A DNA stretch of 64,000 nucleotides from Nitrospira sp. (lineage in GTDB: Bacteria > Nitrospirota > Nitrospiria > Nitrospirales > Nitrospiraceae), in NCBI GenBank assembly GCA_024760545.1, contig CP060501.1, positions 1,029,501 through 1,093,500 on the forward strand, in the 5' to 3' direction. A model generated the notes under the pieces. It did no database searches and had not been told where the DNA came from. It saw nothing but the letters and a program-made list of their open reading frames with translations. Positions 41,717-61,577 of this stretch are shown here, piece by piece; the first letter of the stretch is position 1; the number at the start of each line of letters is the position of its first letter. Both the position numbers and the translations under genes were made by a program.

Positions 41717-41777
41717 TTATGGATAAGTATACTGGAGTGACCGGCTGCCGTCTGTGCACAATTGCTCAGTAGGAACA
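41717..41777. repeat. Upstream module 1, copy 1
   Basis: 61 bases sharing TTATGGA-AAG-ATA-TGGA and CTGCCGTCTGTGCACAATTG then CTCAG-GGAAC with 48756 and 61515. Read on the minus strand it contains a TATACT hexamer about 80 bases before the ferritin start codon and an upstream ATTGTGCACAGAC block with the TGTGCACA palindrome. Likely a transplanted promoter region. Confidence 0.65.
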
Positions 41778-41854
41778 ATTGTGAGATGGTGGCGAGGCTG
41801 GGCGCAGGCTGGCTTGGCTCTCCTGAGTCAGCGGAGCGGAATCAGATGAAGATT

Positions 41855-42523
41855 CTAGTCGTGGAGCACGACATTGAGGAGAGAACTATGCACGTGCAAT
41901 CCGTTGTTCCGGCGTAACCCGCCTTTATAATCAATGAACCCCAACTTGCGGAACTTATTCATAAAGAAACTGACGCGAGAGCGGGTGGTGCCGATCATCT
42001 CGGCCAACGTTTCCTGGCTGATCTTCGCAATGACCGTCTCCGGCTTACTCTCCTTCCCAAAGTGGGCCAACAACAGTAGCGCGCGCGCCAGCCGCTTCTC
42101 ACTGGAATTAAACAGTTGATCCACTAAATCCTCTTGGACTCGAATCGAGTGCACCAGTAAATAGGACGTAAATGCCTCGGCGAACGTGGGTTGATCGCGA
42201 AGCATGCAGAGCATGACGGCTTTGTCGATGCGGAGAATCTGGGAGTCTTCCAGGGTCGTCGCCGTCGCCGGCCGAACAGTCTGTCCCACCAGGCAGGACT
42301 CTCCTAAAAAGGCACCGGACTCAAAGATCGCCACGACGGCTTCCTTGCCATGTGTCGAGACCACGGTCAGTTTAACCTTGCCGGCCTGGATATAGAACAC
42401 CTCGTCAGCTGTATCCCCTTGTGCGAAGATAATCAGCTTCTTGCGAAACGTGAGCATCGTTTTGCCCTTGTCGATCTTCGTGAGGAAGGTGTCCAGATTG
42501 AACGGTATGTGCATGCGTGCCAT
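41855..42523 (-). CDS. Crp/Fnr-family transcription regulator
   Basis: 222 aa. Cyclic-nucleotide-binding barrel at about 20-120 (IIFAQGDTADEVFYIQAGKVKLTVVSTHGKEAVVAIFESGAFLGES), a dimer helix, then a winged helix with recognition segment SQETLAEMIGTTRSRVSFFMNKFRKLGFI. No N-terminal Cys cluster, so not an oxygen-sensing FNR. The arrangement resembles stress regulators such as those acting on oxidative or nitrosative signals. Strong AAGGAGGG ribosome site. It could control the nearby stress genes. Confidence 0.88.
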   Translation of the reverse strand: MARMHIPFNLDTFLTKIDKGKTMLTFRKKLIIFAQGDTADEVFYIQAGKVKLTVVSTHGKEAVVAIFESGAFLGESCLVGQTVRPATATTLEDSQILRIDKAVMLCMLRDQPTFAEAFTSYLLVHSIRVQEDLVDQLFNSSEKRLARALLLLAHFGKESKPETVIAKISQETLAEMIGTTRSRVSFFMNKFRKLGFIDYKGGLRRNNGLHVHSSLLNVVLHD

Positions 42524-42559
42524 AGGTCACCCTCCTTTTCATTTCGAGCGACTGAGCCA

Positions 42560-42573
42560 GTTATTGACGTAAC
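42560..42573. promoter_or_regulatory. Candidate operator upstream of crp-like gene
   Basis: GTTATTGACGTAAC has GTTA/TAAC arms separated by six bases, the geometry of Crp/Fnr-family sites. It sits about 37 bases before the regulator start codon and might serve autoregulation. Confidence 0.3.
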
Positions 42574-42692
42574 AGAATGCTATGTCGTATCCAAGAGCCG
42601 TTAGCCATCCATCAGGGACTATGCACTCGTATCCACTCTGGGCTCACAGTCTCCCCGATCTCGATCTATACTCACTCGGCGAGGACATGACG

Positions 42693-42905
42693 CTATCGAC
42701 CGCGGTTCAGGGAATAGGATCCCCCGGCCGATGGGACTGGGGCATGCAGGCTATCCACATTCTGTTGCATTTCCCTCAATGCCAGACCGATCTGTTTGAC
42801 CGAGCAATGACGCAAGGCATGGATGCTGTCCCCCATCCATAACCGAAGGCCTTTTCGTGACGGTGAATTCAGTGTCAACACATAAGTCCGTGATATGGTC
42901 TTCAT
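42693..42905 (-). CDS. Small hypothetical protein, 70 aa
   Basis: MKTISRTYVLTLNSPSRKGL starts behind GGAGGACAAT. The protein is soluble, basic near the start, and contains WMGDSIHALRHCSVKQIGLALREMQQNVDSL. Family unknown. The frame is open upstream to 43016 into the next gene but the ribosome site fixes the start. Follows 42985-43353 on the same strand. Confidence 0.55.
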   Translation of the reverse strand: MKTISRTYVLTLNSPSRKGLRLWMGDSIHALRHCSVKQIGLALREMQQNVDSLHAPVPSAGGSYSLNRGR

Positions 42906-42984
42906 ATTGTCCTCCGTGGTAATGGTGGCCCACCGCTTCACGCTCGAGACGAGCCTGAAACAACGGACTATGCTCCGTTTCCTG

Positions 42985-43353
42985 TCATGCCGCCCGAAAT
43001 ACCGCAAGCAGATCACTCAATGCCATGGTCTTGTGTTTCAGCATGGCCCGTTCTACCTTCAGCTCATTCAGAGCGACCGCCTTCGCGTCTCCTTCCGCGA
43101 GGCAGGACTCGATAAGCGAACACACCCGATTGCACTCCTGCTCGACCTTCGCCTTGACGACCTGATTGACAGACAGCATGTCCAGCACAGTGGCCTTGGT
43201 CGAGGCGAGATGCGACTGTAGTTCGGCTTCCGGATAGCTGATACGTGCTGCCTCGCTCACACAGCGATCCATGCTTTGCGCTAAGAAGACGTACAATCTG
43301 GCCAGCGTATCCGTGACCTCGATATGATTATGAATGACAGATGGGGTCTTCAT
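42985..43353 (-). CDS. Hypothetical helical protein, 122 aa
   Basis: Behind GAAGGAGCAC. All-helical, soluble, with VTDTLARLYVFLAQSMDRCVSEAARISYPEAELQ and a long charged helix (VVKAKVEQECNRVCSLIESCLAEGDAKAVALNELKVERAML). Three cysteines occur in the middle. It could be a small scaffold or sensor, but I do not recognise it. Preceded by 43420 on the same strand and probably cotranscribed. Confidence 0.62.
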   Translation of the reverse strand: MKTPSVIHNHIEVTDTLARLYVFLAQSMDRCVSEAARISYPEAELQSHLASTKATVLDMLSVNQVVKAKVEQECNRVCSLIESCLAEGDAKAVALNELKVERAMLKHKTMALSDLLAVFRAA

Positions 43354-43419
43354 TCTTCGTGCTCCTTCTCGTTACAGACGCTCGTGCGTCGCGGTGGTCG
43401 AGTGAGTAACCCGAGGTGA

Positions 43420-43605
43420 CTAGTTACCCGGTCGCGGCGGGGTTTCCAGGGAAAGACTCGGCTCCGACGACCCCTGCATCGACGCCTTCAGTGCCTCGAT
43501 AGCCTTCCCGACATCCTGTTCCGTCGATCCAAACCGGTCTCCCATCACCTTGATGGCCTGAGTGATCGCTTTCTTCATCTTCGAGATTTGTTCTTCAGGT
43601 GTCAT
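43420..43605 (-). CDS. Small hypothetical protein, 61 aa
   Basis: MTPEEQISKMKKAITQAIKV begins behind AGAGGG. An amphipathic helix is followed by FGSTEQDVGKAIEALKASMQG and a Pro/Ser tail. No motif recognised. It lies in a minus-strand row with 42985 and 43649. Confidence 0.55.
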   Translation of the reverse strand: MTPEEQISKMKKAITQAIKVMGDRFGSTEQDVGKAIEALKASMQGSSEPSLSLETPPRPGN

Positions 43606-43648
43606 GAGCCCTCTCTCGTTTGTAAGTCTCCGCGACCAATCTGACCGG

Positions 43649-43816
43649 TCAGGACATTCGAACGGTGCGTCGCGCCACCAGGTGAATCGCGAGCAAGACG
43701 ATCCCACCCAAAAGCAGCGTCCAGGAACTCTGGGTCGCAACCGGGGCCACTCCAGCCAAATTCAAGGCTCCGGCAATCAACCCGACGAATAAAAACACCG
43801 CTGCGTAGCACACCAT
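43649..43816 (-). CDS. DUF1328-like small membrane protein
   Basis: 55 aa with two hydrophobic helices: MVCYAAVFLFVGLIAGALNL, then AGVAPVATQSSWTLLLGGIVLLAIHLVARRTV. This resembles DUF1328/YtjA proteins (LxxALxFLVIALIAGxxGFxGxA). Ribosome site GGAGAGGAG. Upstream module 2 copy B lies about 145 bases before its start. Confidence 0.68.
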   Translation of the reverse strand: MVCYAAVFLFVGLIAGALNLAGVAPVATQSSWTLLLGGIVLLAIHLVARRTVRMS

Positions 43817-43960
43817 ATTGAACTCCTCTCCAGAGTTGCGCACCGCTATTGGGAACATCTCCGCGCGCCTGCCCCCACTTCAAGTCGACTTGTGCCTGGC
43901 GGGCATACCCGATGAATCGCCATCGGGGAAAGCGATCATCGCCTGGAAATCCTCTCTGGC

Positions 43961-44063
43961 GTAGAAGCGGCGGAGACTGAAGAATCGGTCGCGCCAGTGA
44001 AGGAACCGAGTCGCGCGAGGGACTTAGGACAGTCGGCGTAGCTGGAACGTCAGAGCCTACAGC
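43961..44063. repeat. Upstream module 2, copy B
   Basis: Shares GAAGCGGCGGAGACTGA, GAATCGGTCGCGCC, GGACAGTC and CTGGAACGTCAGAG with copies A (23246) and C (47184). It fills part of the 420-base gap 43817-44238, whose remainder is the AT-rich promoter area of the XRE gene. Confidence 0.6.
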
Positions 44064-44142
44064 GATGCATCGATCATGCTACCCGTCACTACCCGCATCA
44101 GAAACATCACCGTGCATCAACCACGCTACGCGATTTAACTAT

Positions 44143-44203
44143 AACTAGTCAAGTATTATGTTGCTATACACTTCTTCTGCTTCTATTATTGACCACAACT
44201 AGT
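44143..44203. promoter_or_regulatory. Paired AACTAGT sites upstream of XRE regulator
   Basis: AACTAGT occurs at 44143-44149 and again at 44197-44203, 54 bases apart (about five helical turns). The second is a full palindrome, AACTAGTT. They sit in an AT-rich stretch 36-96 bases before the start of the XRE gene and could be its autoregulatory operators. Confidence 0.4.
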
Positions 44204-44238
44204 TAACCCATTCGTTACATTGCAACAGGACGATCATT

Positions 44239-45117
44239 ATGGACGTTGCGCTGCTCATCAGGAATCGATTGAAAGAGCTGGGGCTGGGTCAACGGACTCT
44301 CGCCCGTGCGGCTCACGTGACCGAATCATATATCTCGCAGTTACTCACACAAAAAAAGCTCCCGCCGGCGCCGAATCGGACTGACATGTACGATAAGATC
44401 GGACGAGTACTGAAATTGCCGCCGGGACAACTTGCCAAACTCGCCGATCAACAGCGCCGAGAACAGCTCAGAAAACGGCTGGGAGATCAGCCGAATCCGT
44501 TGCTGCATGACGTGCGAGAATTGATCCTCCGCAAATGTCATCCCGGGAAGACCCGGCAGATCCGCGCGATTTTTGAGAAGCAACCTTTCGGCGAACTCGA
44601 ACGCTTCGTCACACAGAAACTCCTCGGCGTCGTCAAAAGTGTGGCTCGGCAGGAACTCGACAATCCGATGTGGGTACGCCAGGTGGCTCGACTGAACAAG
44701 AAAAGTTACCCACAGATGCGCGTCACCGTGCTGGAGTTCCTGGATACGACGATTTTCGATCTCTCGAACGAGAACTGCATCGCGTTTCTCGATCCCTTGA
44801 TCGAATCCTGGAATATTGACCTCGTCACTTTTTGCATAGAGATTGTCTTGAACCGCCGGGTGGCATCAGGCCACCACAAGACATTCGAGTTTATGGAAAG
44901 AAGACCGGACAAGACTTCGGGAGAGGAGCCCGGGCTTAAGGAGTTTCTCCAAGATCCCTTACTGAGCGGGGATGCGACCGAGGAGGAGCTCATCTTTCTG
45001 CGCACACTGACGTTTGACAACAAACGACCAACCCCACTCTACTATTACCGTGAGCTTCAGAGCCTGAGAGACCCCTTGCATTTTCAGGCCCCTGACAAGA
45101 AAAATTCTCCAAGGTAA
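44239..45117 (+). CDS. XRE-family helix-turn-helix regulator
   Basis: 292 aa. The N-terminal 60 residues are an XRE/Cro DNA-binding domain (LLIRNRLKELGLGQRTLARAAHVTESYISQLLTQKKLPPAP ... YDKIGRVLKLPPGQLAKL). The C-terminal 200 residues are an unrecognised helical domain (PLLHDVRELILRKC, FGELERFVTQKLLGVVKSVARQEL, MRVTVLEFLDTTIFDLSNENCIAFLDPLIESWNIDLVTFCIEIVL). It starts at ATG 44239 without a strong Shine-Dalgarno. The large effector domain suggests a regulator that senses a ligand or partner protein. Ends 18 bases from a convergent microprotein. Confidence 0.82.
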   Translation: MDVALLIRNRLKELGLGQRTLARAAHVTESYISQLLTQKKLPPAPNRTDMYDKIGRVLKLPPGQLAKLADQQRREQLRKRLGDQPNPLLHDVRELILRKCHPGKTRQIRAIFEKQPFGELERFVTQKLLGVVKSVARQELDNPMWVRQVARLNKKSYPQMRVTVLEFLDTTIFDLSNENCIAFLDPLIESWNIDLVTFCIEIVLNRRVASGHHKTFEFMERRPDKTSGEEPGLKEFLQDPLLSGDATEEELIFLRTLTFDNKRPTPLYYYRELQSLRDPLHFQAPDKKNSPR

Positions 45118-45135
45118 CAACGCATTGACACCTTG

Positions 45136-45246
45136 TTACTTGGTCAGAAGGACAGTCACAAGCAGAGCAACCCCCCAGGCAATCGCATACGCAAGCAAGA
45201 GGAGTTCTGCTGCCATGTCACGCCTAAAATCACGCCACCTGCTCAT
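45136..45246 (-). CDS. One-helix microprotein, AYAxAWG type, copy 1
   Basis: 36 aa: MSRWRDFRRDMAAELLLLAY followed by AIAWGVALLVTVLLTK. A basic start then one transmembrane helix. GAGGAAACT precedes the ATG. The core AEL-LAYAIAWG-xLVT-LL recurs at 57818-57988, which supports coding. Confidence 0.62.
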   Translation of the reverse strand: MSRWRDFRRDMAAELLLLAYAIAWGVALLVTVLLTK

Positions 45247-45416
45247 AGTTTCCTCACGGTATTAACCTGTCGCCTTATGGACTGAATGAACTGTCTTATC
45301 CTCACGTCGTCTTTGCTGTCGGATTCTTCATCGCAAATCCTGAGCTGCGTGTGGTCTACATAATCTACTTTCGTACTGACCAGCAAAGGAGCGCTCTGTG
45401 ATGATGACCCTGCGGT

Positions 45417-45629
45417 TCACCTCACTCGACCTTTTCCAGACCTGGCCGCCGGTGACCCAGGTGGGCGTGCACTGCTCCGAGCCGGTGGACTGTGACTCAC
45501 TTGATTCGCCTCAATCCCTGGGTCCGTCGTCGCACCGCAGAGGAGGCAACGCCACCCCAATATCGGAGGCTGCCCCATGTCTCTCATTTGGATCGCGATC
45601 AAGAGACCTTGGCAACGTGGACAGCGCAT
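45417..45629 (-). CDS. Zinc-ribbon family Z, distant member
   Basis: 70 aa behind TAGGAGATGTC. MRCPRCQGLLIAIQMRDMGQ and WRCLLCGATTDPGIEANQVS reproduce the CxxCxGLL start and the second CxxCG knuckle of the family at 40798, with a shorter spacing and a different Pro/Arg-rich tail. Probably binds one zinc. Function unknown. Confidence 0.68.
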   Translation of the reverse strand: MRCPRCQGLLIAIQMRDMGQPPILGWRCLLCGATTDPGIEANQVSHSPPARSSARPPGSPAARSGKGRVR

Positions 45630-45789
45630 GACATCTCCTATGGGCTCTTTCTACAACACCCTTCTCAAGGTCCCATTCCAGATAAGCGATGCATATATGG
45701 AATCTGAGTAACTTCGAAAGAAGCAATACCACCACACCTCGGCGATGAAATCCCATGGCCTGATCATGTCAGGCCTCCTTCCCGGAACA

Positions 45790-46362
45790 CTAGCAAGCTT
45801 TGGATGGATGGTTGGCGGAGGCGACATTAAAGACCGCGAGATTTGGATGTTGGAACTCCAGTCGTTTCTCGCGTATCTGAAACGCACGATCCCCAATTGC
45901 CAACAGCTGTTGTTTGTTGAGGTACAGGTCCCGCTTGTCATAGACAGCCCACTCGTATTCCCGAGTCATCGCCAGGGCATCCACCGGACAGGCTTGAACA
46001 CACAGTCCACAAAATAAACAGCGTGTCATGTCCATCGAATACGCACGTGCGTATCGCTTCGTCGGTTCTCCCGGTACTTCTGCGCTCTCAACGGCGATGA
46101 CGCGAGAGGGACAAGCAGCCTCACAAAGATCACACCCGACGCACTTCTCGGTTTCATCCTCATACCGCAACAAGGCCAACATGCCCCGATAATTGTCCGG
46201 CAGAATCCGCTTCTCGTGTGGATACTGAAGCGTGATCGGCTTGTAGTGAATGAGATGGCTCATGGTCGACTGCATTCCCACAGCAATCTCATAGAAGGTG
46301 ATCAGCTTGATCCACGCTGTGAATCCTCGATACTGCCTTGCCAATTTCTCGCTCAGTCTCAT
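45790..46362 (-). CDS. nuoI: NADH dehydrogenase subunit NuoI-like ferredoxin
   Basis: 190 aa with two 4Fe-4S motifs: KCVGCDLCEAACPSRVIAVE and RCLFCGLCVQACPVDALAMT, the arrangement of NuoI, which relays electrons between the peripheral arm clusters of complex I. N-terminal MRLSEKLARQYRGFTAWIKL and TLQYPHEKRILPDNYRG match NuoI. ATG 46362 overlaps the stop of the small ORF upstream (ATGA); the frame is open to 46413. No other nuo gene is in the window, so this is an orphan copy whose partner complex must be elsewhere, if it is used. Confidence 0.85.
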   Translation of the reverse strand: MRLSEKLARQYRGFTAWIKLITFYEIAVGMQSTMSHLIHYKPITLQYPHEKRILPDNYRGMLALLRYEDETEKCVGCDLCEAACPSRVIAVESAEVPGEPTKRYARAYSMDMTRCLFCGLCVQACPVDALAMTREYEWAVYDKRDLYLNKQQLLAIGDRAFQIREKRLEFQHPNLAVFNVASANHPSKAC

Positions 46363-47289: not shown

Positions 47290-47456
47290 CTGGGCGCATT
47301 CAGCACCGGAGTCAAGCGGTATTATGGTTGAGGACGGTCTCTATCCTCTAATGAGGCATTCTTCATCTCCTTCTAACTCCTTCTTCATCCTGTGGGGCTA
47401 CGTTACGGATATGTGGAGTGGAATTTGTGATTTTGCCGATACATGGAGGTGACATC

Positions 47457-47546
47457 ATGGATGCAAACTGATTGACATTCAGTGCGGCGATTCTTGGAGT
47501 GGTAGTGGCGGCAGTCGTCGTCTACAAAAAGGATCAGAAGTCGGAG
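47457..47546 (+). pseudogene. Micro-ORF with in-frame TGA, copy 1
   Basis: GGAGGTGACATC precedes ATG GAT GCA AAC TGA TTG; after the TGA the same frame reads LTFSAAILGVVVAAVVVYKK DQKS, a one-helix protein. The matching copy at 56103 has TGA at the same codon and ends with TAG after DQKS; here that TAG has become GAG so the frame runs on to 47684. Either the product starts at the TTG right after the TGA, or the TGA replaced a sense codon (probably Trp) before duplication. Confidence 0.55.
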
Positions 47547-47585
47547 GGAGGGTGGCTAACCATATGGCCCTTCCTCGTAGCCTGT

Positions 47586-47618
47586 GAACTGTCTCGGACG
47601 TGCAGCCTGGGACGGTTC
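47586..47618. ncRNA. Conserved hairpin, copy 1
   Basis: GAACTGTCTCGG (47586-47597) and CTGGGACGGTTC (47607-47618) pair over 12 positions with three G-T pairs around a nine-base loop ACGTGCAGC. The second copy at 56235 differs only in a change that turns a G-T pair into G-C. It could be a terminator-like or regulatory RNA element; a TTTT run follows after 5 bases. Confidence 0.5.
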
Positions 47619-47626
47619 CTAGGTTT

Positions 47627-48464: not shown

Positions 48465-48677
48465 TCATCGCATCGAGACAGGCGCGTGAGAGGCAGGCTT
48501 GCTCCGCGAGATCCCTCGCGTTCTCCCCACACTCTGAAGGCGATTGGCACGAACGACGGCATCCTCGATACACCCACAACTAATGCAGCGGGTCGCCATG
48601 TCTAAAGAGTTGGTCTCGATGTTCCATTCACCGAAGGTATGTCGTACCAGGAGCCCTCGACAGCGTTGACAGAGCAT
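48465..48677 (-). CDS. Zinc-ribbon family Z, copy 2
   Basis: 70 aa behind GAGGGAAGATGT. MLCQRCRGLLVRHTFGEWNI, then DMATRCISCGCIEDAVVRAN. Nearly identical to 40798 and 61212; the Arg/Ser-rich tail varies. The region upstream to about 48818 is also duplicated at 61212-61577, so gene and upstream module moved together in this case. Confidence 0.78.
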   Translation of the reverse strand: MLCQRCRGLLVRHTFGEWNIETNSLDMATRCISCGCIEDAVVRANRLQSVGRTRGISRSKPASHAPVSMR

Positions 48678-48755: not shown

Positions 48756-48818
48756 TTATGGAGAAGCATAATGGAAAAGCTGGCTGCCGTCTGTGCACAA
48801 TTGCTCAGGAGGGAACGA
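48756..48818. repeat. Upstream module 1, copy 2
   Basis: 63 bases differing from 61515-61577 at only three positions. On the minus strand it gives TATGCT about 90 bases before the zinc-ribbon start and the ATTGTGCACAGAC block upstream. The rest of the gap 48678-49002 shows no gene. Confidence 0.65.
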
Positions 48819-50717: not shown

Positions 50718-51247
50718 CAGTTCCTCCTCTAGCGTGCCCTACAAGTTCCCCTACTATCCCGTTATATCAACTGAGCACCATATGAAGCCAATTATTTCGT
50801 ATCCCCGATATCGGTTCTTATCGGTGCCTCTCTCGCTCCCATGAGTCCAGCATAGTGTGGACTGTTAATCATGATCGGTGCTGAGGCGAGCACGAGTGAT
50901 GATGTGACGGAAGATATGAACAAACGACTGGGAGAACCCCGAGGGGCAGTGGCTTTTCGACAGTAAACCGGTTTCATTCCTTCCTGCCCACCTTTTGCTT
51001 TGGTGGCGCATTGCATAAAAGAGTGTAGAACCAAACCGGGTGTTAGCTTGAGTGGAGAGGACTGGAGTGGGCTTGATCACAAAATCAGCACACATTTCGC
51101 TGTCTGATCAATTCCTGCAAAGTGATCAAAGTTGACCAGTCCCCCTATTGTCTCTCGGGCATGATGTTCCCGCTCCTGAGTTTATACGCGTGAGGTTTTC
51201 TATACTCCTCGGACAAATCGAAATAGCCTCACTGCTTCCTTACGGGG
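50718..51247. other. Gene-free stretch before the histidine kinase
   Basis: 530 bases with only chance-level open frames. TATACT at about 51201 might be the -10 of the kinase promoter, but no -35 is clear. No repeat noticed. Confidence 0.35.
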
Positions 51248-52882
51248 ATGCACATGAACCGCCCAAACAACACGAACGAGTTCGAACCTCATGATGATTC
51301 AGTCTTACGCGAAAGCCAGCGGCGCTATCGGACCTTATTCGACATGGCCCCTATTGCTGTCTATTCCTGTGATGCCTCCGGTATCATCCGGGAGTACAAC
51401 AACCGTGCAGCGGAACTGTGGGGCCGCAAACCCGCTCCGGACGACAGCGATGAGCGGTTCTGCGGCTCATTCAAGCTGTACCGCCCGGACGGCAGTTTTA
51501 TGCCACACGAGCAATGTCCTATGGGCGACGTGCTCTGTGGCAACGTACCGCAGATTCATGACGCAGAAGTGCATATCGAACGGCCCGATGGCTCGCGGGT
51601 TATCGTCATCGTCAATATTACTCCGCTGACTAACAAGCAAGGACACATCACAGGAGCGATCAATTGCTTCTACGATATCACGGAACGCAAGCAGACCGAG
51701 CAAACGTTGCGTGCGTCTGAGGCACGTTACCGGCATCTCTACGAGTCGATAGATGAAGGGTGTTGCGTCATTCAAGTGGTGCTTGATGCGAACAATATGG
51801 CGGTGGACTACAAGTTTCTCGAAGCCAATCCGGCCTTTGAAAAGCAAACTGGCATTACTCATGCCCCTGGCAAAAGCTTACGAGCAGTGGCCTTCTATCA
51901 TGAAGACCACTGGTTTGAAATGTTCGGCCAGGTTGCCTTGACTGGTGAAGCGAGGCGATTCGAGTTTCCCACTGCCGACCTGCAGCGCTGGTACGAAGGG
52001 TATGCTTACCCTTTTGGCGAGGCGCGTGGGAGAAAGGTTGGAATTCTCTTTAATGACATTACGGAACGCAAACGAACAGAAGCACAGCTGCGGCAGCTGA
52101 ACAACAACCTGGAAGCACAAGTGACTGAGCGGACCGAGGAATTGGCCGCAACGCAGACTCGGCTACGAGGCTTGGCTGCGGAACTCACCGATACGGAACA
52201 GCGTGAGCGCAAGCGGCTGGCGGCGGATCTGCATGATGAACTCGCACAGCTTCTGGCCCTGACCCGGATGAAACTTACCTTAGCGAAACGGCAGGCCATG
52301 CCGCCTCCGCTCGCGAAGATCATTACTGATGTGGACGGGTTCACAGACAAGGCCCTGACCTACACGCGAACGTTGATTTCACAGCTCAGTCCTCCGGCTT
52401 TAGCCGTGTCTGGCCTCCCGGTGGCACTGCAATGGCTCACGGATCAAATGCAGCAGCACAATCTCGCCGTCTCGATACAAGTCAAGACGCCGATTCCAAC
52501 GATCCCTGAGGATCAAGCGCTGCTCCTGTTTCAGTCGATCCGTGAGCTTCTGTTCAATTGTATTAAACATGCTGCGTCGCATGAGGCGATGCTTACGCTC
52601 GACCTGCGTGACGGATCGTTGTACGCACAAGTTTGCGACCATGGTGTAGGATTTGACCCATTGTGCGCGACTAAGACAGCAAATGCTCCGGCACGCGGGT
52701 TTGGCTTGTGTAGTATACGCGAGCGGATGTTGTCGTTAGGCGGCCATTTCGAGCTCAGATCCTCGCCAGGGAATGGTACGACGGCTACGCTGGTGCTGCC
52801 ACTGTGTGAGAGTCATGGCATCCCATCTTCGCTGACCGCCAGTCATGGATCGATCATGAATAATGGTGCTTCGGGCCGATGA
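51248..52882 (+). CDS. PAS-PAS sensor histidine kinase (NarX/DegS type)
   Basis: 544 aa, no membrane helix, so cytoplasmic. PAS 1 about 25-150 (YRTLFDMAPIAVYSCDASGIIREYNNRAAELWG ... FYDITERKQ), PAS 2 about 160-275 (ARYRHLYESIDEGCCVIQVV ... FNDITERKR), a coiled coil (QLNNNLEAQVTERTEELAATQTRLRGL), HisKA_3 with the phospho-accepting His in RKRLAADLHDELAQLLAL (about 328), and a HATPase (IRELLFNCIKHA, VCDHGVGFD, GFGLCSIRERMLSLGGHF). Such kinases usually pair with NarL/LuxR response regulators, but none is adjacent. Confidence 0.9.
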   Translation: MHMNRPNNTNEFEPHDDSVLRESQRRYRTLFDMAPIAVYSCDASGIIREYNNRAAELWGRKPAPDDSDERFCGSFKLYRPDGSFMPHEQCPMGDVLCGNVPQIHDAEVHIERPDGSRVIVIVNITPLTNKQGHITGAINCFYDITERKQTEQTLRASEARYRHLYESIDEGCCVIQVVLDANNMAVDYKFLEANPAFEKQTGITHAPGKSLRAVAFYHEDHWFEMFGQVALTGEARRFEFPTADLQRWYEGYAYPFGEARGRKVGILFNDITERKRTEAQLRQLNNNLEAQVTERTEELAATQTRLRGLAAELTDTEQRERKRLAADLHDELAQLLALTRMKLTLAKRQAMPPPLAKIITDVDGFTDKALTYTRTLISQLSPPALAVSGLPVALQWLTDQMQQHNLAVSIQVKTPIPTIPEDQALLLFQSIRELLFNCIKHAASHEAMLTLDLRDGSLYAQVCDHGVGFDPLCATKTANAPARGFGLCSIRERMLSLGGHFELRSSPGNGTTATLVLPLCESHGIPSSLTASHGSIMNNGASGR

Positions 52883-53577: not shown

Positions 53578-55782
53578 TTATGCCGACATTTGTCCTTTGC
53601 TCTCCCTGTCCCAGTGCCGATGTTGAGCCAACGCCTTGATGAACTTGCCTGCAACTTGAACAATCTGTGTTCCTCGCCCCGTGACGATGCCTTCATCTCC
53701 CGCGAGCAGTTTGGTTTCATCGTGCACGACGCCTTCGGCGTGACTTATGGCCTTCTTGTCTCCACCCGGCTGAGCCGCCAGCAATAGTTCGAGACCGGCA
53801 TCGGTCGCAGCAATTGGTTTACAGTGGAGATACGCTTCTTTGACGAAGACGATTGCTTTCGCATCACCCTTAAGAATTTCCACACTCTGTTCGCCACCAG
53901 GCACATACACGGCATCAAAGAGGACAGACCCAGCGGTCAAAAAACTAAAATCGATGACGATCTGCGCCCCCTTCGCTCCCTTCAGGAGTCCAAGTCTCGG
54001 CGCTACCACTTTGGCTTGAGCCCCGGCCGCCGTCAGAGCCTTCTTCATCCCGGTGAGAGCGGTCTCGTCGACGCCATCCGCGGCGAGAATGGCGACCTTC
54101 CGTGTCGCGATGCCTTTTTTCACTGTATTCGCCATGCTCAACGCAGGGGAACGATCAATGGTACGCACAGGCGGTTCCGGCTGAAACTGCTTCGGCTGAC
54201 CGTCTGCAGGGACGCTCTGGTTGAGGGGACCCTCGACTTTCATAGGAACAGCCATACCCAGGCCCTGCGCCACCATACCCGCGAGCGTCTTGTCCACTTG
54301 TGCGAGCAAGAAGACCATGCGCTCGCGAATCGCCGGCACCGCCACCTTGCCCAACTCGAAGCGCAAGGCTTGCACGATGTGCGCCTTCTCGGCATGGCTC
54401 TGACTGTTCCAGAAGAGAGACGCCTGGCTGAAATGGTCGAAAAACTTCTCGCTCCGGGCGCGCACCTTCGCCCCTTCCACCCGCTCTGCATAACTGACAA
54501 ACCCGCCTACATCGGCCTTGGCCTGCATTGGACAGCCGCCGCTCAACGAATTGGGATGATAGCTGACCCTGCCCTGATTGATGGTTTGCCGCATATGCCC
54601 GTCTCGCTGATTGTTGTGGACAGGGGCCACTGAACGGTTGATCGGGATCTCATGAAAATTCGGGCCACCGAGCCGGATGAGTTGCGTGTCTGTGTACGAG
54701 AAGAGGCGGCCCTGGAGAAGCGGGTCATTAGAAAACTCGATTCCGGATACCAGGTGGCCTGGATGAAACGCCACCTGCTCCGTTTCGGCAAAGAAGTTTT
54801 CCGGGTTCTTGTTCAACGTCAACTTTCCAATGCGTCTCACCGGAACGAGTTCTTCAGGAATAAGTTTGGTCGCGTCCAGCAGATCGAAATCGAAGCGGTG
54901 CTCGTCCTTTTCCTCAACCAGTTGGACACCGAGTTCCCATTCAGGAAAGTCGCCCCGCTCTATCGCGTCCCACAGGTCGCGACGATGAAAGTCGGGGTCC
55001 ACCCCCGAAATCTTTTGGGCCTCATCCCAGGCGACGGAGTGCACGCCCAGGAGAGGTTTCCAATGAAACTTGACGAAGCGCGACGTGCCCTTCTCGTTGA
55101 CGAACCGGAACGTATGCACGCCGAACCCTTCCATCATCCGGAGGCTTCGTGGAATCGCTCGGTCGGACATGACCCACATAATCATATGCATTGATTCCGG
55201 CATTAAGGAGATAAAATCCCAGAAGGTATCGTGTGCACTCGAGGCTTGCGGAATTTCTTGATGCGGTTCCGGTTTGATCGCATGGACCAAGTCGGGAAAT
55301 TTCACCGCGTCCTGAATAAAAAACACTGGAATATTGTTTCCGACGAGGTCAAAGTTTCCATCATGCGTGTAAAATTTGACGGCAAACCCACGTGCGTCCC
55401 GCGCCAGGTCCGAGGAGCCGCGCGATCCCACCACGGTTGAAAAGCGCACGAAGACTGCCGTCCGCTCCGAAGGATTGTGCAGGAATCCCGCTTTGGTCAC
55501 GGAAGCCATCGACTCATAGACCTGAAAAACGCCGTGCGCGGCCGCACCGCGCGCATGTACCACGCGTTCAGGAATGCGTTCATGGTCAAAATGGGTGATC
55601 TTCTCGCGTACATGAAAATCTTCGAGTAGCGAGGGCCCGCGTGGGCCAGCTTTAAGAGAATTCTGATCATCGTTGATCCGAAGGCCCTGGTTGGTTGTGA
55701 GGATCTGTTCGTCGTTGGTCTCCTGAAATGGAGCCAGGTCGCTTGTCTTTGGAGTATCCCTATCCTTCTTGTTCCGTTTCAT
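53578..55782 (-). CDS. katE: Large-subunit catalase HPII (KatE) with C-terminal flavodoxin-like domain
   Basis: 734 aa, the clade-2 catalase size. Distal His76 in [12 protein letters not shown], Asn149/150 in [19 protein letters not shown], proximal haem ligand Tyr363 in [14 protein letters not shown]. The C-terminal 150 residues form a class I amidotransferase-like domain ([36 protein letters not shown]). Breaks down hydrogen peroxide. A perfect TCCCTAGCGTAGGGA palindrome lies about 140 bases upstream, and a ferritin-like gene follows in an apparent operon. Confidence 0.95.
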
Positions 55783-56102
55783 TCTTCCATCTCCTTCATA
55801 CCGATCATGTCACTCACAGACTGCTTACCCTTGCCGCTGAACGCAGACGGTCTATCAAATAGGATCCTCCTACTGAACATATGAATGTACTATTCGGATA
55901 GAGCTGCTGCCGCTAGGCCGTTCCCTAGCGTAGGGATAATTTTCAAGCACAGGACGATTGACGGTTAGATACGCCTGTTTAAGGCACGGGCTCACCGCGC
56001 CATGCGGCAATCGGGCATACAGAAAAGAAGAATTTCATATTGTGGTATAACCCAGCGCTGTAAATAGAAAATTTGTGAGTTTAGCCGATGCACGGAAGGA
56101 AC
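55783..56102. other. Upstream region of katE
   Basis: Gene-free. It contains the palindrome described at 55922 and, near its right end, the beginning of the block duplicated from 47415 (AAATTTGTGAGTTTAGCCGA compares with AATTTGTGATTTTGCCGA). Confidence 0.4.
55922..55936. promoter_or_regulatory. CCCTA-N3-TAGGG palindrome upstream of katE
   Basis: TCCCTAGCGTAGGGA has perfect six-base arms with a three-base spacer. A related CCTACTATAGG is found upstream of the hemerythrin gene at 56504. Likely a binding site for a dimeric regulator (inference). Confidence 0.5.
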
Positions 56103-56195
56103 ATGATAGATGCAAATTGATTGTTATTCGGTGCGGCGATTCTTGGAGTGGTAGTGGCGGCAGTCGTCGTCTACAAAAAGGATCAAAAGTCGTAG
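56103..56195 (+). CDS. Micro-ORF with in-frame TGA, copy 2
   Basis: AAGGAAC precedes ATG ATA GAT GCA AAT TGA TTG; past the TGA the frame gives LLFGAAILGVVVAAVVVYKK DQKS and TAG at 56193. This duplicates 47457 closely. If translation restarts at TTG 56121 the product is a 24-residue one-helix peptide. If the TGA is simply a stop, the gene is dead in both copies. Confidence 0.4.
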
Positions 56196-56234
56196 GGAGG
56201 GTGGCTAACCATACGGCCCTTCCTCGTAGCCTGT

Positions 56235-56267
56235 GAACTGTCTCGGACGTGCAGCCCGGGACGGTTC
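56235..56267. ncRNA. Conserved hairpin, copy 2
   Basis: GAACTGTCTCGG and CCGGGACGGTTC pair over 12 positions around loop ACGTGCAGC. A run of six T follows after 6 bases, so it might act as an intrinsic terminator for the micro-ORF. Compared with 47586 the right arm carries one substitution that improves pairing. Confidence 0.5.
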
Positions 56268-56503
56268 CATAGGTTTTTTCTTGTGTCCTACGGCGAGTGA
56301 TAGCTGGCCCTTACACAACTCATTGGCGCGGATTGATCCAATCCCATCTACCTGCCCCGCATACATCAAAACCTGCATCGTCCCGTTGCATTCCGTTGTC
56401 CTACTGTTGAGCGCATAGACACGTCAATCCGCGGCCACCCTCCACAATCTGCTGAGATCGTTTTTCCCGTCGTGGTGTTGATTTCCGGATCATTTATCTT
56501 CTC

Positions 56504-56592: not shown

Positions 56593-57078
56593 ATGTCAGG
56601 CAAAGCCGCAGTCGCACCCGGAGTGATCGACATGTTGAAAGAGGATCATGAGAAGGTAAAAAGGCTCTTCGAGGAGTTCGAATCAGCAGAGGGGAAAGCG
56701 CAGGCAGACATTGCCGCTACCGCAATTATGGAGCTGGAGGTCCATGCAGATTTGGAGGAGACGCTCATCTATCCTGCCATTCGTGAGGCCATTGACGAAG
56801 ACGAACAGATGAACGAGGCCGTCGAAGAGCATCATCTCGTTCACGTGCTCATCAAGGAACTGAAGAAGCTCGCACCAAAGGATGACGCCTTTCAGGCCAA
56901 ATTCACCGTCCTGGGGGAGTTGCTGAAGCATCATATTGAGGAAGAAGAAGGGGAAATGTTCCCAATGGCACAAGAAAGCAAACTCGACTGGGCAGCACTG
57001 GAGACGGCGGTGATGAAGCGCAAAGAGACCTTGGTGAATAAGTTTACTAGGGGCAAGAAGCCCGTTGCCAAAGCCTAG
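56593..57078 (+). CDS. Hemerythrin (HHE) domain protein
   Basis: 161 aa behind TGGAGGTAACT. Hemerythrin-like four-helix bundle with iron ligands visible as DMLKEDHEKVKRLFEEFE, ELEVHADLEETLIYPAIRE, EEHHLVHVLIKELKK and LLKHHIEEEEGEMFPMAQE. Cytosolic HHE proteins bind a di-iron site and take part in oxygen, NO or peroxide sensing or iron supply. The C-terminus is basic (KFTRGKKPVAKA). Single gene closed by a strong hairpin. Confidence 0.9.
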   Translation: MSGKAAVAPGVIDMLKEDHEKVKRLFEEFESAEGKAQADIAATAIMELEVHADLEETLIYPAIREAIDEDEQMNEAVEEHHLVHVLIKELKKLAPKDDAFQAKFTVLGELLKHHIEEEEGEMFPMAQESKLDWAALETAVMKRKETLVNKFTRGKKPVAKA

Positions 57079-57085
57079 CAACTCT

Positions 57086-57125: not shown

Positions 57126-57519
57126 GCCTACTCTCCCATTACAAGAGTACATAGCGAGTGAAGACGACCGTCTCAAACCGATCAGGCCAGAGCGTGCTGT
57201 ATGGAACAATCACCCGACTCTCTCAGCGGAACGGACACAGCACCCTGTCCATCCGCACATGACCCGGCCACTCGTTGGGACGGTCATAGAAGCCTCGCTC
57301 TCATCCGACCACATCCTCCACCGTAGAGCCCTTCCGCGATGGATCATCGTTCAACTGCACGTCCCGAATGAGACCTCCGAAGGGAATAAATGCGGGCATC
57401 GATTCTCGTGTCCATGCGGTGCCAATGAGTGGCGAGTGCGATCATCGCCCACGTGATGGCCAGCATCCGTGCTGCGGCTTCGCTGTCGACATGGATCACT
57501 CGCAAAACCCCGGAGACGC
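57126..57519. other. Gene-free stretch
   Basis: A minus-strand frame of 81 codons (57344-57589) overlaps the better zinc-knuckle candidate at 57520 and lacks a ribosome site. Nothing else was seen. Confidence 0.3.
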
Positions 57520-57705
57520 TCAGAGTTGCGTCTTTGGCCGGATTGCAGACTCCGGTTGATAAGTATACAGCCAATTTATAGTTCCGCATTCACGGCAGAT
57601 ACCGAACGAGGCCCCTCTGGGCGGAAGCAGCCTGCTTGGATTTTCAACGATCCAACATTTCCAGCAAAGGAACGTCACATACGGAGGCAATCTGACTTTA
57701 CGCAT
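57520..57705 (-). CDS. Possible small zinc-knuckle protein
   Basis: 61 codons from ATG 57705: MRKVRLPPYVTFLCWKCWIV, ENPSRLLPPRGASFGICREC, GTINWLYTYQPES. CWKC and CREC could bind zinc. No ribosome site is visible, which keeps the call weak. Confidence 0.4.
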   Translation of the reverse strand: MRKVRLPPYVTFLCWKCWIVENPSRLLPPRGASFGICRECGTINWLYTYQPESAIRPKTQL

Positions 57706-57817
57706 GAGAAGAGGGGTCCTCGAAAGCGGTTCGAACGTCAACGAGGAGAGAGTCTAGGTTTATACTCATACCTTAAAGCTCAAATTCTCTCGCGCTGCTT
57801 CAATGGATCGGTACCGA

Positions 57818-57988
57818 TCATCTGGACCCGCCGACCCAAAATAGCGTGTCTATAACCTTAACCTTATCCAAGCAGGGTTCTGTATATAGATTCCTACTCG
57901 ATTTCATGGTGATTTCAGCAGCTAGTAACGTCACAAACACGGCTCCCCACGCCACCGCATAGGCAAGGACAACATGTTCAGCCCGCAT
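57818..57988 (-). CDS. One-helix microprotein, AYAxAWG type, copy 2
   Basis: 56 codons: MRAEHVVLAYAVAWGAVFVT then LLAAEITMKSSRNLYTEPCL and a tail. The core AE-VLAYAVAWG-xFVTLL matches 45136. Weak ribosome site, so the homology is the main support. Confidence 0.5.
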   Translation of the reverse strand: MRAEHVVLAYAVAWGAVFVTLLAAEITMKSSRNLYTEPCLDKVKVIDTLFWVGGSR

Positions 57989-58238
57989 CTATCAGCCATG
58001 TGACACGAACTTTGTAGCGATTGAGTTTCACCCCGCCACAAACAGAAAGCTCCATCCTTTTTCAAGAACGGAGCCCTCCGCGAAACAGCGCAATTTTTAT
58101 ATCATGTATGCGCGATAACGTTTCCATTACCTTTCACAATATGTCCACTGCGTTCATTCGAGTCGCATGCTAACGTCACCACGTCCCAACGGGTACTGGG
58201 AGGGAACCTAGTTCATTGCTTATGTTAGGAGCATCGAT

Positions 58239-58550
58239 TCAGTTCACTCGTTGCAAGGTTGTCGTATGGCCTTGATCCGTGACATAGGCTTTGACCAGGT
58301 CGCCCGGTTTCACCGTGTCCAACTTCGTGCTCTTATCGACATGGATCCTATGCTCTTTGCCATCATCATCTTTTATCGAGTAATACTCTCCCTCAATTCT
58401 CAACAACGTTCCCTTGAACGAATCGTTCGAGAAGCGCTCTTTGATCGTGGGACTCGCTTCTTTCTCCGCCATGGGATCAGCAGCGTAGGTCATGCCAGCT
58501 CCGGATCCCAACAATCCAACCACCAACATCGATAATATTCCTATTTTCAT
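58239..58550 (-). CDS. Exported protein, family Y copy 2
   Basis: 103 aa behind GGAGGACACG. Signal peptide MKIGILSMLVVGLLGSGAGMTYA, short linker, then FKGTLLRIEGEYYSIKDDDGKEHRIHVDKSTKLDTVKPGDLVKAYVTDQGHTTTLQRV. This aligns with the C-terminal domain at 38337 (GELFRIKDGNYFIKVEEGRTIRLHTDKTT). Periplasmic; function unknown. Confidence 0.75.
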   Translation of the reverse strand: MKIGILSMLVVGLLGSGAGMTYAADPMAEKEASPTIKERFSNDSFKGTLLRIEGEYYSIKDDDGKEHRIHVDKSTKLDTVKPGDLVKAYVTDQGHTTTLQRVN

Positions 58551-58760
58551 CGTGTCCTCCGTTTAGATTGAACTCATTCTCGCATGCGGCCATCGTATCC
58601 GCAGCTGGGAGAATACCGTGGATAAGCATTAGCTAACCAATTGATGGAGCGTGAACCTAGGGAAAAGCATCGTCGATCATGTGACGATAAAGAAAGAGGT
58701 TGCAGCATCTCCACAAGGCTACGTATGTCCGGCGCCTAAAGAATTCCAGCGGGGAAAGCA

Positions 58761-59357
58761 TCAGTATTCCCACATTCTCTGTCGTGCCTCGCTTAGGAGA
58801 TGATTGGCCTGGGCTTGAAATGCCAGCGTGCTGCCTTCTACGGCCGTGAGCGTTTGTTCGCACATCACTCGGTTGTCTTGTCTGGTATCGCTCAGCATTC
58901 TGGACTTACGAATGAGGTTCCTCCGAAGTTGATGGCTATACTTGGTCGTCCACGTCGCGCCACGTTCAAGAGAACAACGCAATTGGTAGAGTGACAACAG
59001 GTCTTCAATGATGCAGATGATGTTCGGGGTCGTCGTGGTTCCGTGCAGGAACCCAAGGGCGCCCTGCTCTATGGCTTGCCGCACGGCAGCGACTTCCTCT
59101 CGCTCCGTCGTGACAATAAAGGGCGAGCAAGGATGGTGAAGCCGATTGAGGCTGAGTAAAGAATACCCGTCGACTGAAGCAATGCGCTGAGGACAGATGA
59201 CGACTTGGTAGAGGTTCAGCGGTATATACATCACAGCTTTCTTATACGAGGAACACACATTCACCAGAGCGCTCGAAAAGTATCGGCGGATGATTTCGTG
59301 GAGCTCAGGAGCAGGATCTATGAGTAAGATTGAGGCTGATGCGATAGATGCGGCCAT
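58761..59357 (-). CDS. Degenerate receiver-domain protein
   Basis: 198 aa behind GGAGATC. Residues 5-125 follow the response-regulator fold: SASILLIDPAPELHEIIRRYF, VVICPQRIASVDGYSLLSLN, SPFIVTTEREEV, IEQGALGFLHGTTT. The phospho-acceptor Asp position reads ICPQ, and the switch Lys after the fifth strand is replaced, so phosphorylation is unlikely. A C-terminal helical region (RCSLERGATWTTKYSHQLRRNLIRKS ...) replaces a DNA-binding domain. Probably a pseudo-receiver working by protein contact. Confidence 0.7.
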   Translation of the reverse strand: MAASIASASILLIDPAPELHEIIRRYFSSALVNVCSSYKKAVMYIPLNLYQVVICPQRIASVDGYSLLSLNRLHHPCSPFIVTTEREEVAAVRQAIEQGALGFLHGTTTTPNIICIIEDLLSLYQLRCSLERGATWTTKYSHQLRRNLIRKSRMLSDTRQDNRVMCEQTLTAVEGSTLAFQAQANHLLSEARQRMWEY

Positions 59358-59540
59358 GATCTCCGCTTTCCCACAGGTCGGCGGTCAAGACACTTCAGCA
59401 GGCCGCTGACTATGTGCAAGGAGTGTTTTGGAACTGTCGATGTAAGATTCTCGCATTAAACGCCAATGTAACCACTGGTATGTTCCCGAGGGCCTTCTCC
59501 ATGCTAACCCGATGGATGTGGGTTCGTTCTCTAGTTAGCC

Positions 59541-60653
59541 TTATTTAGGAGTGGAATCGATGCGGACGGCTCCTTCGCCCGTCATCACCTGGCTGGAGGG
59601 AGTTTGATAGTTGTCACAGTAGATCTTGAAGGCAGCGATAGCGATCCCCAAGAGAATCGGGCCCAAGAATAGTCCGATAAAACCAAAGTACATCAGGCCA
59701 CCGACGGAGGCAAAGAAGAGAAAGAGAACGGGTAAATCTGCGTCTGAGCCGACGAGAATCGGCTGTAGGATATTGTCCATGAGCCCAACGAGCCCCACAC
59801 CCACGACGATCATGACGATCATTTTCCAAAGCGCAGCGGTCCAGAACAGATACGCGGCCACGGGAATCCATACCAATGCCGTGCCTCCGAACGGCAACAA
59901 AGATAAGAGAGCGCTTATCGAACCGAGAAATACCGGGAATGGGACATCAAGCACCCAATAGGTCAGCCCCGCTACGACGCCTTGTGCCAGAGCTGTGAGC
60001 AACGTGCCACGCACCACCGCCCGCATGGTCTGGATCAGGCGATCAAAAATGACCGTTTTATGACCCGCCTCGATGGGCATCGCATTATAAAAGCTAGTGT
60101 AGAGACGCTCGCCGTCGCGAAAGAAAAAGAAGAGGGTGAATAGCATAATGAAGAAGTCTGTGATGAGTTCAAACGTATTCTTGGCAAGCCCGCTGACGCC
60201 CGTGAAGAGGACTGCACTGACCGCCTTTCCTCCTTCGAGCAATGATCCTTGGAGGTCCCCATAAGCTTCTACAAATCGTTCTAGCACCCCTTCCGAAAGA
60301 GGGCCGATCACGGGTACGTGCGAGACCGCAGCAGGAACGCGCTGGATTCCACCGCTCTGCACCCAGGCCATGCCGGTTTGATAGGCATGAATAGTTTCTG
60401 TCACCGCCAAGAAGGCGAGATACGCCACCGGCAAGATGGCAATAAGTGTTACCACGATCGTACTCAACGCAGCAGAGAGCGTCCGCTGTCCACGCAGGAA
60501 CCGTAACAGGTACTCGTAGAGAGGGAAAAAAAGCCGCGCCAGGATGAGCGCCCACAGAATTGGGGTAAAAAAAGGCGCGAAAATCAAGGCGAGCTGGTAC
60601 AGCACCAATGAGCACAAGATCAGGAAGGCCGTCGAAAGTGTTTGCGGAGACAT
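59541..60653 (-). CDS. AI-2E family transporter (PerM-like)
   Basis: 370 aa with about seven to eight helices: LILCSLVLYQLALIFAPFFTPILWALILARLF, LSTIVVTLIAILPVAYLAFLAVTE, ITDFFIMLFTLFFFFRDGERLY, LTALAQGVVAGLTYWVLDVPFPVFLGSISALLSLLPFGGTALVWIPVAAYLFW, and the C-terminal SDADLPVLFLFFASVGGLMYFGFIGLFLGPILLGIAIAAF. The block VPFPVFLG...LPFGGTALVWIP is the family core. Members export autoinducers or act as Na+/H+ antiporters. Confidence 0.9.
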   Translation of the reverse strand: MSPQTLSTAFLILCSLVLYQLALIFAPFFTPILWALILARLFFPLYEYLLRFLRGQRTLSAALSTIVVTLIAILPVAYLAFLAVTETIHAYQTGMAWVQSGGIQRVPAAVSHVPVIGPLSEGVLERFVEAYGDLQGSLLEGGKAVSAVLFTGVSGLAKNTFELITDFFIMLFTLFFFFRDGERLYTSFYNAMPIEAGHKTVIFDRLIQTMRAVVRGTLLTALAQGVVAGLTYWVLDVPFPVFLGSISALLSLLPFGGTALVWIPVAAYLFWTAALWKMIVMIVVGVGLVGLMDNILQPILVGSDADLPVLFLFFASVGGLMYFGFIGLFLGPILLGIAIAAFKIYCDNYQTPSSQVMTGEGAVRIDSTPK

Positions 60654-60799
60654 CTGGCGACGCTTTTCTTCGCTACGTTCTCACGACGTTTTCTCGTTCT
60701 AGCTCTAATGCATGATTTCTTATTGTTCACCACCATCGCGAATCCTGCTCGTTGAGGAGCCAATCTCGTGGCGACGTTCGAACCATTTGTCGGCTATTT

Positions 60800-61129
60800 T
60801 TACTCCTGGTTCTCCCCCGTCCTCTCGGTTGCGGCATTCCCTGAGTCTGGTGAAGGAGGGGCTGCATCCGGATTCGTCGACATGGTGGGATCACGGTTCG
60901 GTGGCGCTACAGAAGCCCGTGAATCTGGCTGCCCTCTTTGCATATGTTGCATCCCGGGGTCCATAACCGAAGGGGCTGCCTCTTGACTCGACTTAGACCT
61001 CCCTTCTGGATTCGAGTTTTGAGTGGATTCGGACGAATCTTCAAATGGTTCTGCGCACGCAGGGCCGATCCCCACCATCACTGACGTCAAGGCCAACGTC
61101 GCAACCGTAGGGAATACGTATCTGGTCAT
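60800..61129 (-). CDS. Exported Pro/Ser-rich hypothetical protein
   Basis: 109 aa. MTRYVFPTVATLALTSVMVG and following residues form a signal peptide ending at PACA, behind AGAGGTGCGCC. The mature protein is low complexity (SESTQNSNPEGRSKSSQEAAPS, MSTNPDAAPPSPDSGNAATE) and probably disordered in the periplasm. No domain. Confidence 0.6.
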   Translation of the reverse strand: MTRYVFPTVATLALTSVMVGIGPACAEPFEDSSESTQNSNPEGRSKSSQEAAPSVMDPGMQHMQRGQPDSRASVAPPNRDPTMSTNPDAAPPSPDSGNAATERTGENQE

Positions 61130-61211
61130 GGCGCACCTCTGCCGCAAGGGCATGTTCATTGTCCATCAATCGACCTGTTCCGTCCTCTACACGGTGACCA
61201 TTACCATCTGT

Positions 61212-61424
61212 TCATCGCATCGAGACAGACGCTTGAGAGGCATGCTCTCTGTGCGAGATCTCCCGCATTCTCACCACACTCTGGAGGTGATTCGCGCGAA
61301 CGACGGCATCCTCAATACACCCGCAATTGATACAGCGTGTGGCTGGGTCTAGAGAGTTTGTCTTGATGTTCAATTCACCGAAGGTGTCTTGTACAAGGAG
61401 TCCTCGACAGCGTTGACAGAGCAT
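61212..61424 (-). CDS. Zinc-ribbon family Z, copy 3
   Basis: 70 aa behind GAGGGAGGATGT: MLCQRCRGLLVQDTFGELNI, DPATRCINCGCIEDAVVRAN, HLQSVVRMREISHREHASQA. It differs from the 48465 copy at scattered positions, all outside the cysteines. Upstream DNA to 61577 parallels that copy as well. Confidence 0.78.
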   Translation of the reverse strand: MLCQRCRGLLVQDTFGELNIKTNSLDPATRCINCGCIEDAVVRANHLQSVVRMREISHREHASQASVSMR

Positions 61425-61514
61425 ACATCCTCCCTCCGCACCCAATGGCGTGCTAGGCAGATTCCCATCGAATGGAAACCAGGCCTCTTGTCTGCGTCAC
61501 ACGCATCGACCTAT

Positions 61515-61577
61515 TTATGGAGAAGCATAATGGAAGGGCTGGCTGCCGTCTGTTCACAATTGCTCAGGAGGGAACGA
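61515..61577. repeat. Upstream module 1, copy 3
   Basis: 63 bases nearly identical to 48756-48818, with TGTTCACA instead of TGTGCACA in the central palindrome. It lies about 90 bases upstream of the zinc-ribbon gene. The remainder of 61425-61869 holds no supported gene. Confidence 0.65.

Follow-up and report, generated by a model that had tools for sequence, protein, structure and literature searches.

Why should the same short block of DNA stand ahead of a ferritin-like gene and of two zinc-ribbon genes in one bacterial genome? Three copies of such a module, all on the minus strand, lie within a 64,000-nucleotide stretch of Nitrospira sp. (contig CP060501.1, positions 1,029,501 to 1,093,500), and this whole stretch is called the window here. 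An earlier note on it had suggested a mobile promoter with an activator site. To us the repeated module looks more like one shared regulatory circuit in many Nitrospira than like a wandering promoter. We consider it probable, at roughly 70%, that the module serves as a promoter of the housekeeping-sigma type that depends on an activator, that the Crp/Fnr-family protein P0001, encoded upstream of one of the copies, is its most likely activator and acts in the class II manner, and that the promoter drives a set of stress and oxidative-defence genes. Nitrospira carry out nitrite oxidation as well as complete ammonia oxidation, and if the proposal is true, iron storage, oxidative defence and general stress proteins would be joined in one circuit, possibly common to some Acidobacteria. 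The role of Fnr-type regulators in Nitrospira was stated as undetermined in a 2017 paper (PMC5596200); it becomes directly testable once there are a defined operator, a candidate for the regulator and a list of genes.

Module copies and probable promoter architecture

Copy A (41717..41778) carries a box at 41753-41768 (TGAGCAATTGTGCACA) and a -10 hexamer TATACT at 41726-41731, with a predicted transcription start near 41719. Copy B (48756..48818) has its box at 48792-48807 and copy C (61515..61577) at 61551-61566 (TGAGCAATTGTGAACA); the -10 hexamer is TATGCT in both, at 48765-48770 and 61524-61529. Positions 41717-41773, 48756-48812 and 61515-61571 align without gaps over 57 nt, and B and C are each 84% identical to A. 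This corresponds to 48 of 57 matches, against at best 33 of 57 in 20 base-shuffled windows, and a 25-base core with up to three mismatches occurs three times in the window and never in 100 shuffles that preserve dinucleotides. The repetition that the earlier note described is thus real, and its details hold as well: the copies contain both the TATACT/TATGCT hexamers and the TGTGCACA/TGTGAACA block, and their low edges lie 70, 79 and 91 bases from minus-strand start codons (GTG 41647 of the ferritin open reading frame (ORF), ATG 48677 and ATG 61424).

Forty-three core sites, to which the five copies in a genome of the same species (G091) do not belong, were cut to 38 by similarity. These 38 share a near-invariant block, TGAGCAATTGTGAACAGAC, behind which come a conserved spacer and then a YATNNT hexamer. 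Of these sites, which were searched for with the core alone, 36 have YATNNT at one and the same offset and one more has it one base further on; the next-best offset, which overlaps the same hexamer, occurs in 13. The offset is kept in 20 of the 21 sites with independent upstream flanks. If the hexamer occupies -12 to -7 and transcription is assumed to start 7 nt past the -10, the centre of the box TGAGCAAT|TGTGAACA falls at -41.5, where a class II Crp/Fnr site with fixed spacing would be expected, and the -35 position of the 38 sites reads CAGACK, not TTGACA. The box consensus is TGAGCA-ATTG-TGANCA, or more broadly TGAKCA-N4-TGANCA, at a fixed distance from the -10 YATNNT. A matrix from the 38 sites picks up many diverged relatives in other genomes. 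A further model, R2 (alignment A2), comprises 58 diverse sites, selected from 302 scored hits that were first thinned to 73 diverse ones, from which 15 with low scores or poor hexamers were removed by hand. Genus-wide model searches used stricter filters, at the price of weak matches.

The sites are also placed as promoters would be. Placement was counted for sites of at least 35 bits in 457 kb, made up of the window together with 23 loci rich in sites; many of these had supplied training sites. Only 10 of 48 sites fall inside ATG-initiated ORFs of at least 150 amino acids (aa), which cover 63% of this DNA, and other cut-offs give 14 of 48 versus 76% (100 aa) and 5 of 48 versus 55% (200 aa). 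A Shine-Dalgarno sequence with an ATG follows within 170 nt in 36 of 48 cases. On the divergent side this holds for 14 of 48, and at random places for 20.7%. When the sequences are reversed, no site of at least 14 bits is found, compared with 79 in the real ones. A positional bias towards start codons, which the earlier note had named as a test, is therefore present and favours a promoter. The fixed spacing between box and -10, the avoidance of ORFs and the position of start codons on the correct side together support, at the level of sequence, a promoter with an activator site.

Sigma-54 and extracytoplasmic function (ECF) promoter readings were judged by eye only and dropped, because the sole fixed downstream element is the YATNNT hexamer. 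A conserved leader RNA was also rejected: 14 leaders gave six predicted pairs, in none of which both sides had changed, and Rfam at its gathering threshold had no match in 36000-64000. A set of leaders does contain a conserved AGGCCTGGTCCCAATTCGATAGGGA-like stretch about 43-130 nt past the core.

A Crp/Fnr-family regulator next to the sites

The gene of P0001 (41855..42523, minus strand) lies upstream of copy A. The protein pairs a cNMP-binding-type sensor domain (PF00027, E 6.6e-20) with a Crp-type helix-turn-helix (HTH) domain (PF13545, E 4.1e-11), which places it in the Crp/Fnr family, and among solved structures it comes closest to Crp/Fnr proteins, for example 3h3u (E 1.5e-15). It scores far below the NCBIfam equivalog cut-offs for CRP (52.9 versus 266 bits, the best of these), NtcA (38.8 versus 244.95), FNR (30.4 versus 228) and FixK (25.9 versus 300), and its first 76 residues contain no cysteine at all, so that the N-terminal 4Fe-4S cysteines of FNR oxygen sensors are missing.

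Gene order was counted by tblastn around 43 loci carrying the core, eight of which end less than 3 kb past the module. The coding sequence of a Crp/Fnr-family regulator, whole or as its C-terminal part, is found within 1.2 kb upstream at 29 of the 43 loci, and at 23 the stop-codon end of the regulator lies 87-91 bp ahead of the core. Downstream of the module, a ferritin follows within 1.6 kb at 16 loci and a zinc ribbon within 3 kb at 22. The complete order of regulator, module, ferritin and zinc ribbon occurs at nine loci, and the order without ferritin is nearly as common, with seven. One locus (L107, G019:C5) has two same-strand module copies 946 bp apart and a run of N after the downstream copy.

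Regulator and sites also occur together across genomes. Orthologues of P0001 (E≤1e-40) are present in 29 of 79 genomes of the genus. The core pattern is likewise found in 29 of the 79, namely in 28 of the 29 with the regulator (G090 being the exception) and in one of the 50 without it (G064); none of 24 genomes from other genera of the order has it. R2 sites at E≤0.001 occur in all 29 regulator genomes (139 sites) versus six of the 50 others (nine sites; G064, G020, G070, G010, G033 and G001, the last of which carries a fragment of the regulator), giving a Fisher p of 5e-16 with kinship ignored.

We infer that P0001 binds the box and activates transcription, which would begin at the predicted start given above. 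A P0001 dimer on the box at about -41.5 would make up for the absent -35 contact and, once bound, would recruit RNA polymerase as at class II Crp/Fnr promoters. The promoter would in this way drive ferritin, superoxide dismutase, catalase, CsbD, BON, YtxH and other genes in many Nitrospira.

Class II Crp/Fnr promoters are known from E. coli CRP and FNR, whose operators are TGTGA-N6-TCACA and TTGAT-N4-ATCAA, respectively. The module resembles them in the centre of its box (-41.5 on the assumed start), in a weak or absent -35 and in an adjoining Crp/Fnr gene. It differs in that its box is neither of these operators, its spacer is conserved and direct-repeat symmetry describes it better. A comparable kind of arrangement, with no likeness of sequence or box implied, is the low-oxygen-activated lxa locus of Burkholderia cenocepacia, a cluster of stress genes for which two papers report a proposed Crp/Fnr regulator, Anr2/BCAM0049 (PMC6127331, PMC9104464); unlike the Nitrospira set, lxa is described there as rich in universal stress proteins and tied to low oxygen. 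By its description, rather than by sequence, the Crp-family stress regulator of Deinococcus radiodurans likewise connects this family with oxidative stress (PMC4868304). Fnr/NnrR-type regulators of the same genus and family as P0001 are reported in PMC5596200 and PMC8510549. The latter predicts Nitrospira targets with weight matrices from other bacteria, and the part available contains no Nitrospira-derived motif. Among the matches listed in a literature search, judged by titles and the beginnings of abstracts and with most subscription journals outside its coverage, no description of this operator appeared; the string TGAGCAATTGTG occurred only in a wheat paper, SRVSFFMN nowhere, and CsbD with Nitrospira only in a Paenarthrobacter paper.

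Genes behind the sites

Genes behind the sites were assigned by a simple ORF rule, not by a gene finder, and 20 were picked by eye for annotation, so that the following list is illustrative and not a count. It includes CsbD, BON-domain, catalase, transglycosylase-associated, ferritin, Fe/Mn superoxide dismutase, PepSY, AI-2E and YtxH genes, along with genes outside stress functions (undecaprenyl-synthase-like, PP-binding and glycosyltransferase). Four of the 20 have no Pfam match. Three are acidobacterial: Ysc84 and response-regulator genes, behind sites that lack a good -10, and an ice-binding-like gene. Farther along some operons there are radical-SAM, Band 7 and Fe(II)-trafficking proteins. 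Several of the sampled families belong to general stress or to iron and oxidative defence, from which we infer a single joint response. The earlier claim that the promoter had been reused before unrelated genes is borne out elsewhere in the genus and fails for copies A to C, which are followed by the zinc-ribbon family throughout.

A large catalase gene (53578-55782) and a hemerythrin gene (56593-57078) lie in the same region of the window. The R2 scan of the window placed no promoter box ahead of this catalase gene; catalase-like genes at loci of G017 and G030 have the box in front.

Sites outside Nitrospira

The extended promoter pattern matched 43 stretches in named genomes, of which 37 are assigned to Nitrospira sp., two to Nitrospirae/Nitrospiraceae, one to an 'uncultured Nitrosospira' and three to Acidobacteria. 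In the acidobacterial genome G104, six sites (E≤0.1) fall within 33 kb of a single contig, with three P0001 homologues of 57-64% identity on their flanks; one site of G103 has a homologue on either side. Across eight acidobacterial homologues the HTH is on average 90% identical to that of P0001 and the sensor half 48%, and a 13-residue recognition segment is one residue off P0001 in all eight. These acidobacterial sites and homologues are supportive of a link between P0001 and the box, not conclusive.

A wider proposal can be put forward tentatively, and we rather doubt it as a whole: a distinct Crp/Fnr subfamily (recognition helix TRSRVSFFMN, operator TGAKCA-N4-TGANCA) might head a general stress regulon as its master switch, both in Nitrospira and in some Acidobacteria, a class II activator in the role played elsewhere by sigma-S or sigma-B, with gene islands of a dozen or more sites in some genomes.

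Competing explanations

A number of observations weigh against P0001 as the activator of a shared set. The association between regulator and sites ignores phylogeny and is partly trivial, as one site is linked to the regulator gene itself; that site explains it only in part, because most sites (E≤0.001) in the genome of the window and in G017 lie more than 1 kb from any P0001-type gene, with 2 of 8 and 1 of 16, respectively, within that distance. Many of the genomes on which R2 was run had also supplied sites for its training. G064 has a site and the regulator was not found there, and the Nitrospirae metagenome-assembled genome G106 has four sites (E≤0.1) with a best P0001 relative just 31% identical. 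None of regulator, ferritin and zinc ribbon is found at 8 of the 43 loci, and 10 of the 22 zinc-ribbon loci lack ferritin, so the ancestral gene order may have been with or without it. For the Acidobacteria, E exceeds 0.001 at four of the six G104 sites and three of the four in G103, the best site of either genome had itself served to train R2, a clear gene start lies behind only one (L261) of the three exact pattern hits, and P0001 homologues are numerous in these genomes anyway. Finally, the half-sites match each other at 3.88 of 6 positions as an inverted repeat versus 4.74 as a direct repeat, which is odd for a Crp dimer.

The last point leads to the possibility that the promoter is as described and its activator is an OmpR/PhoB-type response regulator bound to the direct repeat TGAGCA / TGANCA. 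The half-sites stand 10 bp apart, within the 10-11 bp of tandem sites of that type, with a direct-repeat identity of 0.79 over 58 sites, and the window itself encodes both a histidine kinase, whose gene is preceded by a weak site, and a protein with a response-regulator domain. A site reading TGATCA-N4-TGATCA (L213:19725) satisfies direct and inverted readings alike. We nevertheless think a response regulator unlikely: the gene that adjoins the sites is of the Crp/Fnr family at 29 of 43 loci and the presence of sites tracks it, the acidobacterial sites lie near P0001 relatives with an almost identical recognition helix, and, for a start 7 nt past the -10, the best dyad has its centre at -41.5.

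The other two explanations both seem highly improbable to us. Plain duplication, in which a conserved block was inherited and has no present regulatory role, would suit the five copies in the genome of the window, which are clearly duplicates, and the broken ferritin gene behind copy A. It does not account for a spacing that stays fixed before different genes at sites with independent flanks (20 of 21), or for exact pattern matches in another phylum. A mobile promoter, that is, a short transposable or recombining element inserting ahead of unrelated genes, is if anything harder still to credit. The same promoter does precede unrelated genes in the genus, yet copies A to C all precede one gene family, the blocks shared between copies end differently from pair to pair, and sites with unrelated flanks retain only box, spacer and -10, as expected for a binding site. 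The copies have no terminal inverted repeats in common (imperfect inverted pairs lie near A and B only, none at C, and not at shared ends), and mobile replicons gave no match, either in viral contigs with the exact pattern or in plasmids with a 91-base query. With the pairing of copies and zinc-ribbon paralogues described below, this leaves the mobility that the earlier note had ascribed to the module without support, and a promoter activated by P0001 remains the reading we prefer.

Origin of the copies

The genome of the window (G000, 4.8 Mb in two contigs) contains five copies of the core with up to three mismatches; two of them, D and E, lie outside the window. The ferritin-like gene behind copy A (41192..41647, minus strand) is split by an in-frame TAA at 41462-41464, and a version without this stop was found in L264, a contig of probably the same species. 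Behind it follows a zinc-ribbon gene (40798..41040, minus strand) of the same family as those behind copies B (48465..48677) and C (61212..61424), both also on the minus strand. A protein search of the genome with the zinc ribbon returned five close paralogues (E 7.6e-44 to 1.2e-28), the next match being at E 1.6e-6. Each of the five stands behind one of the five module copies, ferritin-bearing copy A included. Hence the view that the module and not the gene was reused is not supported: a zinc-ribbon gene follows the ferritin copy too, and five copies correspond to five paralogues. The same genome has 20 further weak zinc-ribbon matches (E 1.6e-6 to 1.1), and the core module is found only at the five closest paralogues.

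Common blocks found by blastn differ between pairs. Between A and B, and likewise between A and C, the common parts are the module (-6..50) and the zinc-ribbon gene. Copy A has about 860 bp in common with E, covering the regulator gene and the module, and the zinc ribbon besides. With D it has in common the module, the zinc ribbon and two stretches of the ferritin region, A's 264..540 being absent from D. The five strong copies look like duplicated cassettes of regulator, promoter, zinc-ribbon gene and, in part, ferritin. Copies A to C probably go back to a duplicated cassette in which regulator and promoter stood together with a zinc-ribbon gene, and perhaps with ferritin; individual copies would then have lost, or gained, regulator and ferritin. 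The partly deleted ferritin region of copy D suggests loss of ferritin, from an ancestral order that may have included it.

Blocks 47431-47619 and 56080-56268 are 92% identical over 189 nt, and blocks 58494-58610 and 61624-61739 are 72-74% identical over 54-57 nt. These duplicated blocks near the module copies point to other old duplications in the same region.

Further features of the window

R2 finds nine sites at E≤0.1 in the genome of the window, six of them within the window. A diverged fourth site (40024..40080, minus strand; R2 E 1.9e-9) has its box at 40055-40070 and a -10 CATGCT at 40028-40033, with unchanged spacing. It precedes a small cysteine-rich gene (MTCRVARS..., 70 aa; 39766..39978, minus strand), and similar proteins follow sites in other genomes. 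A fifth (38225..38279, minus strand; R2 E 5e-8), with its box at 38254-38269 and a -10 CATACT at 38227-38232, precedes a YtxH-family gene (37774..38115, minus strand). A narrower model, R1, scored these two at E 0.013 and 0.13, respectively; the R2 training set held a copy of the fourth site from contig L264. Weak candidates stand before ORF 25478-26392 (26547..26594, minus strand; -10 TAGACT, unchanged spacing, R2 E 0.001) and before a PAS histidine kinase gene at 51248 (51123..51165, plus strand; 18.4 bits, R2 E 0.36). Elsewhere in the window, 26944-35745 is a single ORF of 2933 aa, and the ORF at 62695-63225 has a superinfection-immunity domain (PF14373, E 3.1e-19).

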